NCBI GenBank assembly: GCA_944390575.1 | Contig: CALXQJ010000011.1 | Location: forward strand, 1 to 64,000 | Reading direction: 5' to 3' | Length of the DNA: 64,000 nucleotides | Source: an uncultured Spirochaetota bacterium | GTDB lineage: Bacteria; Spirochaetota; Brachyspiria; Brachyspirales; Brachyspiraceae | Part shown: in pieces, positions 50,864 to 54,213 of the stretch | Numbering within the stretch: the first letter of the stretch is position 1 | Layout of the letters: each line of letters starts with the position of its first letter | Notes under the pieces: model-generated | Told to the model about the DNA's origin: nothing | Seen by the model: only the letters and a program-made list of their open reading frames with translations | Databases searched by the model: none | Program-made: the position numbers and the translations under genes

Positions 50864-50901
50864 TATAATAAAACCACCAATTAAAAAATTTTTAAATAGA
50901 A

Positions 50902-50942
50902 AAGAGTTTAAAAAACTTAAATAAAAAGTTAATTAAACTCTC
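50902..50942 (-). terminator. Hairpin terminator of the arsenic operon
   Basis: Stem GAGTTTAA/TTAAACTC (50940-50933 with 50911-50904 on the minus strand) plus an inner AACTT/AAGTT pair, followed by a T-rich stretch. It separates the thioredoxin-like gene from the TPR gene. Confidence 0.6.
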
Positions 50943-50962
50943 TTTTATTATATAAACTATGA

Positions 50963-51301
50963 TTATAAATTATTTTTTAATAACTCAATAATCTCTTCCT
51001 TAGTTAAAACCTTACCATAAGAAAGAACTTTATAATCTAAAGCCAAAGCAGGAGTACTCATAACCCCATAAGCAGTAATCATCTCAGGATCTTCTATCTT
51101 ACTTACTTCTAAGTCTAAATTAGCTTCTTTTATAGCTAAAACAGTATTATCATATAATTCAGTACAATTAGCACAACCTGTACCTAAAATTTTTACTCTT
51201 CCTTCTTTTACAACTTCACCCGAAGTTTTAGGAGAAGGTGCTCAGCCACAACCAGAGTTTGAATCTTCACTAAATAAGATTTTTTTTAATTTATCAAACA
51301 T
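50963..51301 (-). CDS. Thioredoxin-like selenoprotein candidate
   Basis: A 112-residue frame if the in-frame TGA at 51244-51242 is read as selenocysteine (residue 20). The start has AAGGAG about 10 bases upstream. The N-terminus is MFDKLKKILFSEDSNSGCG-U-APSP; Cys-rich N-terminal tails are usual in ars-linked thioredoxin_3 proteins. The main domain has KILGTGCANCTELY (CxxC, about residues 39-52), DLEVSKIEDPEMI and the cis-Pro segment YGVMSTPALALDYK, then SYGKVLTKEEIIELL. It is the last gene of the arsR operon. A hairpin with a GGGU loop lies 20 bases after the TGA. If TGA were a stop, the gene would be a useless 19-residue peptide. Confidence 0.8.
51201..51238 (-). promoter_or_regulatory. Candidate SECIS element (thioredoxin-like gene)
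   Basis: Reading down the minus strand from the TGA, CCTTCT (51238-51233) pairs with AGAAGG (51206-51201). Two further pairs lie in a 5x5 internal region, and AACTTC (51227-51222) pairs with GAAGTT (51217-51212) around the loop GGGT. The loop starts 20 bases after the TGA, as expected for a bacterial SECIS. Confidence 0.7.
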
Positions 51302-51373
51302 AATAAATAGTCTCCTTAAAATATATTTATTATAAGCTAACAAACATTATATACATTTTTTAATAATTGTAAA

Positions 51374-52390
51374 TTATATAAATAAAAAATAAAATATATT
51401 AAATAAATATCCTATAATAATAATTCCAATAGTTACTATCATCACAAATATAAGTAAAAGTTTAGTTTTCATCACTTTTTTAAGCATTATAATAGAAGGA
51501 AGAGAAAGTGCTGTAACCGACATCATAAAAGATAAAACAGTACCAATACCAGCTCCCTTATAATATAAACTCTCAGCAATAGGAATAACACCAAATATAT
51601 CAGCATAAATAGGAACACCAATAATAGAAGCTATTATTACAGAATACCAATTATTTTTTCCAAGAATAGATTCTATAAAATGTGATGGTATTACATTATG
51701 AATAAAAGCTCCTATTGCAACACCTATTATAATATATAGATATATCTTTTTTATAGTATCTAAAACTTGTTTTTTAGCATATAAAAGCCTCTCTTTTGTT
51801 GTTAAGCTAACTTCTTGTATACAACAATTATTAACTTGAATATTTTGAACATAATCTTCTAAATATCTCTCTAATCTTAATTTTCCAATAATACTACCCC
51901 CAACAACAGCAAGTACAATACCAACCAAAACATAACATATAGCAATCTTAAAACCAAATATACTTGTAAGTAGTATAAGAGAAGCCAAATCTACAAGAGG
52001 AGAAGATATTAAAAAAGAAAATGTCATAGATATAGGAATACCAGCACTTGTAAAACCTAAAAATAAAGGTATTGAAGAACAAGAACAAAAAGGTGTAACT
52101 GTACCTAATAATGCTGATAATATATTTGCAGTTATACCATTAAACTTAGATAAAATATTTCTCGCTCGCTCAGGAGGAAAAAATGACTGTATGTATGATA
52201 TAGCAAAAATAAGTATACAAAGAAGTATAAATATTTTAATAATATCATATATAAAAAATTGTAAAGCCCCTCTTAATACTTCATTTTCTATAAAATTAGA
52301 TAATATATTACCTATTATATTATTAAGCCATTTCATAGATAAAACTTGCTCTTCTAAAAAGACAAAAAATGATTTCACACTTTCTCCCAT
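51374..52390 (-). CDS. ArsP/YraQ-type permease (PF03773)
   Basis: A 338-residue membrane protein with about eight to ten helices. The family cysteine motif TPFCSCSSIPLFLG is at about residues 100-113, and IGVPIYADIFGVIPIAESL at about 251-269 is a second conserved loop. Related proteins include ArsP, which exports trivalent organoarsenicals, and YraQ permeases. Its place between the rhodanese and the thioredoxin-like gene in the ars operon supports an arsenic role. A Cys pair (NNCCIQ, about residue 186) in the cytoplasmic loop may bind metalloid. AGGAG lies 11 bases upstream of the ATG. Confidence 0.85.
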   Translation of the reverse strand: MGESVKSFFVFLEEQVLSMKWLNNIIGNILSNFIENEVLRGALQFFIYDIIKIFILLCILIFAISYIQSFFPPERARNILSKFNGITANILSALLGTVTPFCSCSSIPLFLGFTSAGIPISMTFSFLISSPLVDLASLILLTSIFGFKIAICYVLVGIVLAVVGGSIIGKLRLERYLEDYVQNIQVNNCCIQEVSLTTKERLLYAKKQVLDTIKKIYLYIIIGVAIGAFIHNVIPSHFIESILGKNNWYSVIIASIIGVPIYADIFGVIPIAESLYYKGAGIGTVLSFMMSVTALSLPSIIMLKKVMKTKLLLIFVMIVTIGIIIIGYLFNIFYFLFI

Positions 52391-52425: not shown

Positions 52426-52749
52426 TTAAATATTTTCAAGTCCTTGTTTAAGTTCTCTATGACCAGCACCAGATAAACTATTTAAGTTCTTAAATCCATT
52501 TTTTTTCATAAATTCGCTAACTGCGAAAGCTCTACCTCCACTTCCTCAGTAAAGTAGATACTCTACATCTCTATCAAGTTGTAATATCTCATTAGAAATA
52601 TCAGAAAGTGAAGTATCTATTAGTATACTACCATCTATATATCCTATCTCTTCTCTCTCCTTTGCAGAGCGAGTATCTAATAATTGTATTTTTTTACTTT
52701 TAAGAAGTTTTACAGCTTCTTCTAAACCTATTTTTTTTATTTCACTCAT
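52426..52749 (-). CDS. Rhodanese-like selenoprotein candidate
   Basis: A 107-residue single-domain rhodanese if TGA at 52548-52546 is read as selenocysteine (residue 68). The fold signature is clear: IGLEEAVKLLKSKKIQLLD, TRSAKEREEIGYIDGSILID, DVEYLLY-U-GSGGRAFAVS and the closing LNSLSGAGHRELKQGL. In ordinary rhodaneses the position after LLY is the catalytic Cys that opens the CRSGxR loop, so the TGA falls exactly on it. GGAG lies about 12 bases before the ATG. Read as a stop, the protein would lose its active site and last third. It lies 7 bases after acr3. Confidence 0.85.
52513..52527 (-). promoter_or_regulatory. Candidate SECIS element (rhodanese gene)
   Basis: Minus-strand TTCGC (52527-52523), loop AGTTA, GCGAA (52517-52513), a perfect 5-bp stem with G at the second loop position. 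The loop begins 23 bases after the TGA. The flanking bases pair poorly, so the stem is shorter than in the thioredoxin-like gene. Confidence 0.5.
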
Positions 52750-52756
52750 AATGTTT

Positions 52757-53827
52757 TTAAACTCCTTTTTGAAATTTATCTTTTGTTTTATTTGAAATAT
52801 TAACTAAAAAAAGCATAACAGGAACTTCAACTAATACTCCAACTATAGTAGCAAGTGTAGCACCAGAGTTTACTCCAAACAATGATATAGCAACAGCAAC
52901 AGCAAGTTCAAAAAAATTTGAAGCCCCTATCATAGCAGCAGGTGATGCTATATTATGTGGTAGTTTTAATATATATGCTATTATGTATGATAGTGCAAAT
53001 ATAATAAATGTTTGAAGTATTAATGGTATAGATATTAATATTATATGTAGAGGGTTTGATAATATAATATTTCCTTGAAATGAAAATAATAATACTAAAG
53101 TAAGCAATAAGCCTATTATTGTTATATTATCAAATTTATGTATGAATATGTTGCTAAAATACTCTACTCCATATTTCTTACAAACTACAATTCTTGTAAC
53201 AATGCCAAGTATAAGAGGTATTAATACAAACAAAATAATAGATAAAAACAAAGTAATCCAAGGCACAAATATATCAGATATTCCAAGTAAAAATTTTACT
53301 ATAGGAACAAATAAAAATAAAATAATAAGATCATTAGTAGCTACTTGCACTACTGTATATGAAGAATTTCCTTTAGTTAAAGCACTCCACACAAATACCA
53401 TAGCAGTACAAGGCGCAGTACCAAGTAATACAGCACCTATTAAATATTCCTTTGCCAAATTAGTAGGTATAATATTTTTAAATAAAAAATAAAAGAAAAA
53501 TGAAGAGATAAAAAACATACTAAAAGGTTTTACAAGCCAATTTATAATCCAAGTAAGATAAAGACCCTTTGGATTTTTGCTTATATCTCTAATACTTTCA
53601 AAATCTACACTCATCATCATAGGATATATCATAAGCCATATAAGTATAGCAATAGGTATAGATACATTAGCATATTCTAATCTACTTAAACTTAATGGTA
53701 TTATAGGTATATACTTAGAGATTAATACTCCCACTATCATACAAGCTACAACCCAAACACTCAAATACTTTTGAAAAAAATTAATAGAAGATTTTTCAGT
53801 AGAAACATTATTATCAGTATTTTTCAT
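52757..53827 (-). CDS. acr3: ACR3-family arsenite efflux transporter
   Basis: A 356-residue transporter with about ten membrane helices. It carries the ACR3 segment LGTAPCTAMVFVWSALTKGN (about residues 134-153), including the essential Cys, and the later PAAMIGASNFFELAVAVAIS. It exports arsenite driven by the proton gradient. It lies 11 bases after arsR and 7 bases before the rhodanese gene. GGAG precedes the ATG. ArsB and the ATPase ArsA are absent from the operon. Confidence 0.93.
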   Translation of the reverse strand: MKNTDNNVSTEKSSINFFQKYLSVWVVACMIVGVLISKYIPIIPLSLSRLEYANVSIPIAILIWLMIYPMMMSVDFESIRDISKNPKGLYLTWIINWLVKPFSMFFISSFFFYFLFKNIIPTNLAKEYLIGAVLLGTAPCTAMVFVWSALTKGNSSYTVVQVATNDLIILFLFVPIVKFLLGISDIFVPWITLFLSIILFVLIPLILGIVTRIVVCKKYGVEYFSNIFIHKFDNITIIGLLLTLVLLFSFQGNIILSNPLHIILISIPLILQTFIIFALSYIIAYILKLPHNIASPAAMIGASNFFELAVAVAISLFGVNSGATLATIVGVLVEVPVMLFLVNISNKTKDKFQKGV

Positions 53828-53838
53828 ATTAAAACTCC

Positions 53839-54150
53839 TTAATTACATTTTATATTATTACTTGTATAATTAATGTCTTTTGACAAATAGTAATTCAAAA
53901 TATCCTTTATATTCTCAATACTATCACAATTAAAGCTATAATAAGTCCATTTACCTTCTTTACGAGAATTTAATATATTAGCATCACAAAGTATTTTCAT
54001 ATGATGAGATAATGTAGACTGAACTATATTAAGCCTATCTAAAATCTCACAAGCACATATTTCTCCCCCCTTTATAATCTCTAATATTTGAAGTCTATTC
54101 TCATCAGCAAGTGCTTTAAAAATAAGAGTATTATCTTTATAATCTATCAT
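53839..54150 (-). CDS. arsR: ArsR-family arsenic-responsive repressor
   Basis: A 103-residue winged-helix repressor. The arsenite-sensing Cys pair is in GGEICACEILDRL (CxC, about residues 30-34), like ELCVCDL of classical ArsR. The DNA-recognition helix is VQSTLSHHMKIL, followed by the wing (NSRKEGKWTYYSFN). The C-terminal tail has an extra Cys. I chose ATG 54150 because GAGGTG lies 6 bases upstream; an earlier in-frame start at 54213 would fall within the promoter. Confidence 0.92.
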   Translation of the reverse strand: MIDYKDNTLIFKALADENRLQILEIIKGGEICACEILDRLNIVQSTLSHHMKILCDANILNSRKEGKWTYYSFNCDSIENIKDILNYYLSKDINYTSNNIKCN

Positions 54151-54175
54151 AAAAAACACCTCATATCTATAAACA

Positions 54176-54213
54176 TCGATATATAATATATAATACATAT
54201 CGAATATTGTCAA
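54176..54213 (-). promoter_or_regulatory. ars operon promoter and likely ArsR operator
   Basis: Minus strand TTGACA (54213-54208), 17 bases, TATATT (54190-54185). A perfect 7-bp inverted repeat, TCGATAT (54176-54182) and ATATCGA (54197-54203), lies across the -10 region, a suitable place for ArsR to block initiation. Confidence 0.65.

Follow-up and report, generated by a model that had tools for sequence, protein, structure and literature searches.

The stretch of DNA analysed here (the window, 64,000 nucleotides from an uncultured Spirochaetota bacterium of the Brachyspiraceae) contains an operon in the order arsR-acr3-rhodanese(Sec)-arsP-trx(Sec), with all genes on the minus strand and separated by short gaps. 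The ArsR/SmtB-family regulator (53839..54213; PF01022 and NF033788 above cut-off) and the ACR3-family arsenite efflux transporter (52757..53827; TIGR00832, 367.6 bits against a cut-off of 282.8) place the run among the ars operons, defined by an ArsR protein and an arsenite exporter in one gene run. The rhodanese-domain gene (52426..52749) is followed by an ArsP_1 family permease (51374..52390; PF03773, 216.5 bits), which lies directly upstream of trx, as it does across Brachyspira. Members of the ArsP_1 family differ in substrate, and the window permease falls under the SaoE and SO_0444 cut-offs. The trx gene (50963..51301) is the last of the run, and after it comes an AT-rich inverted repeat (50895..50949; 24-nt arms, 83% complementary, 7-nt loop), a possible operon terminator at which a consensus terminator scan makes no call.

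The trx gene comprises 112 codons and a TAA stop, and is preceded by a ribosome-binding site region (AAGGAGACTATTTATT; 51302..51317, minus strand) with an AAGGAG ahead of the ATG. Its frame is interrupted only once, by a TGA at codon 20 (51242..51244, minus strand) after exactly 19 sense codons, and the product around this codon reads MFDKLKKILFSEDSNSGCG-U-APSPKTSGEVVKEGRVKILGTGCANC..., with the context SGCG-U-AP. These coordinates, the length, the strong binding site and the position and context of the TGA had been proposed in a first-pass annotation made from the sequence, which left the strand unstated, and all of them are borne out by the translation and the upstream region. A gene on the plus strand of the same interval was considered and discarded, given that translation yields none. 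A restart downstream of the TGA can also be set aside, since the first ATG, GTG or TTG after it is codon 74, and Met74 lies within the thioredoxin domain, so that the domain can only be produced by reading through the TGA.

Residues 35-109 match the Pfam domain Thioredoxin_3 (PF13192; 77.3 bits, cut-off 24.8) and the protein also matches TIGR00412, the NCBIfam MTH895/ArsE family (88.5 bits, cut-off 62), which places it in the family that the first-pass annotation had named. The CXXC motif is C43-A-N-C46 (CANC), and both Cys columns are invariant in the alignment. The AlphaFold prediction gives a thioredoxin-like fold for residues 36-111 and an unstructured tail for residues 1-32 (pLDDT below 50); the model is a modest one (11 sequences, pTM 0.58) and is uninformative on contact between tail and active site. 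Compared with its relatives, the N-terminal tail closes with Cys-Gly-Sec in place of a Cys-rich tail.

A putative bacterial SECIS lies immediately 3' of the TGA (51195..51244 with the TGA included, minus strand), supported by folding energy, codon sampling and conservation. It is a two-part hairpin, with an outer CCUUCU/AGAAGG stem, an inner AACUUC/GAAGUU stem and a GGGU apical loop, which begins exactly 20 nt past the TGA, as had been noted in the first-pass annotation. Its minimum free energy is -13.5 kcal/mol, with a moderate z score of -2.2 (4 of 200 shuffles are as stable). When 10,650 sense codons from the long ORFs of the window were sampled, an equally stable fold followed 0.45% of them, and 0.16% combined a stable fold with simple loop rules.

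The genome that carries the window (2.0 Mb, 99.8% complete) encodes the full bacterial machinery for selenocysteine, including a tRNA-Sec with anticodon TCA (60.5 bits, above the Rfam cut-off), SelB (277.9 bits) and SelD (354.6 bits), both above their cut-offs, and a 489-aa ORF between selB and the tRNA-Sec gene that reads as SelA by eye and by position. Glycine reductase subunit GrdB is a well-known selenoprotein, and in this genome its gene has a TGA at the known UGTC site, where Sec is expected, with a GGU loop at +18. SelB, the Sec-tRNA and the hairpin would thus together place Sec at residue 20 of trx.

The trx family is found in 24 of 26 Brachyspira genomes, most of which carry it as a paralogue cluster with at most three members. 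Type A starts with MFFKKK... or a short MSSEK... and has a Cys-rich tail and a CXXC motif, type B (FGUGCLPDP...) lacks the CXXC, and type C (GGCGUGP...) has it. The window species has a single copy, which shares 57-66% identity with types A and C. In the paralogue tree this copy falls between the two on a long branch (0.72) and in no well-supported set, so that it may be the form that preceded the duplications or a member of either type. Its genome is also the smallest, the other Brachyspira genomes having 2.5-3.4 Mb. One near-complete Brachyspira genome (G001) has no match to the trx family, and the type C gene of another (G002; L043:6321-6660) is apparently frameshifted near its 3' end, by decay or by sequencing error.

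Without exception, the 21 type C genes and the 19 aligned type B genes have TGA at the codon aligned with that of the window gene, and in type A this codon is TGA in 4 genes versus TGC or TGT in 13, so that the aligned residue is always Sec or Cys in the three types. For type C together with the window gene, pN/pS is 0.35 before the TGA and 0.18 in the domain, and values below 1 on both sides indicate purifying selection before and after this codon. The four type A genes with TGA (L043, L052, L055 and L060) come from four species, and type A corresponds to the Cys homologue of the 2017 description of the family. Sec and Cys forms of type A interleave in the tree, which implies that Sec and Cys were exchanged more than once or that one was repeatedly lost.

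The hairpin follows the same distribution. Types A and C and the window gene together supply 26 genes with the TGA, and each of these has a stem of at least 4 pairs and a 3-4 nt loop (GGGU, GGU, GUU or AGUU) that starts 18-24 nt past the TGA. Many type B hairpins were missed by the simple finder used, which allows loops of at most 6 nt, and RNAfold draws these with 8-nt loops. The inner four pairs are nearly invariant among relatives and, because they hardly vary, covariation is weak; at the fifth pair the window gene has A-U and type A has C-G, while 5 type C genes have U-A and 16 others a mismatch, and this variation may be taken as weak backing for the helix. A better control than covariation is provided by type A itself, in which the four TGA-coding genes all retain a CCUUC-AGUU-GAAGG hairpin while the Cys-coding genes have none. 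The first-pass annotation had named two findings that would speak against a selenoprotein, namely homologues with neither Cys nor Sec at this position and an unconserved hairpin, and neither was found.

Three readings of the TGA were weighed. It could be a genuine stop, in which case trx would be a pseudogene or code for a truncated leader peptide, and indeed standard ORF calling yields no intact trx, with no ORF of at least 60 aa listed at the locus, as had been anticipated. The same TGA is nevertheless present in most Brachyspira genomes, a conservation that already makes truncation unlikely, and the domain 3' of it is under purifying selection in a lineage where the window genome encodes the full Sec machinery, so that this reading has very little probability left. 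The codon could also be read as Trp or Cys, through a variant code or near-cognate suppression, considering that what the DNA directly shows is only a stop codon being read. Such decoding is equally improbable, given that the adjoining genes do not use TGA as a sense codon, that a tRNA-Sec with anticodon TCA exists, that paralogues and outgroups have Cys at the corresponding position, and that a SECIS-like hairpin comes after the TGA. On these sequence comparisons, Sec is almost certainly the residue inserted at position 20, and a true Thioredoxin_3/TIGR00412 selenoprotein is, with high probability, the best explanation of the gene as a whole.

The rhodanese-domain gene (52426..52749, minus strand) is the second selenoprotein gene of the operon and presumably the one that the first-pass annotation had counted as first. 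It has an in-frame TGA at residue 68 (LLYUGSGGR), followed by a UUCGC-AGUUA-GCGAA hairpin whose loop lies 23 nt past the TGA. Another rhodanese gene of the same genome (L163:3551-3877, minus strand, on contig C17 of G000) has a TGA in the same place (LLYUVSGKR); the two proteins are 58% identical and their hairpin sequences are identical. The rhodanese relatives in other Brachyspira have no in-frame stop, and the genus-wide gene order is arsR-(acr3)-arsP-trx paralogues, without a rhodanese. Rhodanese selenoproteins are already known as a kind (PMC13188914), and the window protein scores far under the NF041203 cut-off.

Outside Brachyspira, the Cys-rich N-terminal tails that had been predicted for relatives are indeed seen. 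Spirochaete outgroups with arsR-arsP neighbours carry them (e.g. CSCGGSC), and among the 78 best non-Brachyspira relatives, which are the best of a longer list and whose counts are not unbiased frequencies, 39 have at least 2 Cys in the tail and 28 have no tail. A TGA within the tail occurs in none of these 78 best relatives, so that, as far as this sample goes, Sec in the tail seems peculiar to Brachyspira.

Gene neighbourhood and family names together point to an arsenic- or metalloid-linked redox role for trx, which we hold to be an evenly balanced proposition. In mechanistic terms, the Cys-Sec pair of the tail and the CANC pair of the domain could form a thiol/selenol relay, or a binding site for soft metalloids, that serves the ArsP/Acr3 exporters; metalloid export would then draw on the joint action of the flexible Cys-Gly-Sec tail and the CANC domain. 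A more specific and distinctly speculative version is that selenium takes part in arsenic handling in Brachyspira, in such a way that the tail would bind or reduce trivalent arsenicals (or antimonials) and hand them to ArsP/Acr3, the Sec rhodanese being a second selenium-dependent step. The alternative that trx is a selenoprotein for general peroxide/thiol redox, for instance as a partner of thioredoxin reductase, with its adjacency to arsP and acr3 incidental, is rather unlikely. Thioredoxin reductase and peroxiredoxins are among the STRING neighbours given for the family in passages of PMC5330540, and arsP adjoins relatives with a tail and relatives without one alike, both of which fit a general role; against it, arsR is present in every Brachyspira trx cluster with enough flank and arsP adjoins almost every one, and an arsP homologue lies within a few kb of 64 of the 78 best relatives listed from other bacteria.

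These results confirm a recoded trx, missed by simple gene callers, in a deep or divergent Brachyspira, and they tie the family to an arsenic-type operon holding a second, rhodanese-type selenoprotein, which makes selenium-assisted metalloid handling directly testable. The single copy of the window species allows trx function to be tested free of paralogues, and the type A genes offer a natural control for SECIS prediction, with the hairpin in TGA genes and not in Cys genes.

The gene had been described as hidden in the first-pass annotation, which holds for naive gene calling and does not hold for the literature, as the family was published for Brachyspira in 2017. Santesmasses et al. (PMC5330540) found there, according to the passages of that paper on the family, a thioredoxin selenoprotein family in which a Thioredoxin_3 domain carries a short extension with Cys/Sec, encoded by three clustered genes with a putative SECIS 3' of the TGA, and unannotated or annotated in truncated form. 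A 2026 review (PMC13188914) lists the Brachyspira thioredoxin-like selenoproteins as Sec.1 and Sec.2. The window trx resembles the 2017 family in its Pfam domain, genus, N-terminal extension with conserved Cys/Sec and putative SECIS, and has a CXXC like Sec.2. It differs in copy number, the passages giving three genes (two Sec, one Cys) per analysed genome as opposed to one in the window species, but the three-gene set is there an observation rather than a definition, so the window trx is still assigned to the family. The arsR/acr3/arsP context and the Sec rhodanese of the operon are features of the window that those passages do not mention.

Other known systems share parts of this arrangement. 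MTH895/ArsE of TIGR00412 (1ILO), the only PDB match to trx in a sequence search (E 2e-12), has the same thioredoxin-fold domain with CXXC; it is 77 residues long, however, and lacks both the tail and the Sec that the window protein has. Redox-active disulfide protein 2, a name borne by the TIGR00412/Thioredoxin_3 family, has been noted in ars operons, with a proposed electron-transfer role (PMC2963123), but those operons mostly contain arsC and CcdA, neither of which lies between arsR and trx in the window, and the tail residue is Cys in that ars-operon family and Sec in the window trx. The SAO system (SaoT, NF040730; SaoE, NF040736) likewise pairs a thioredoxin-like selenoprotein with an ArsP_1-type permease. 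The identity of trx with SaoT is ruled out, as NF040730 is unmatched (at E 0.001 only TIGR00412 is reported), and the window permease reaches 100.8 bits against SaoE, whose cut-off is 325. The window trx is thus a correct independent rediscovery of a known family in another species, set apart by its single-copy arrangement and the adjoining Sec rhodanese.
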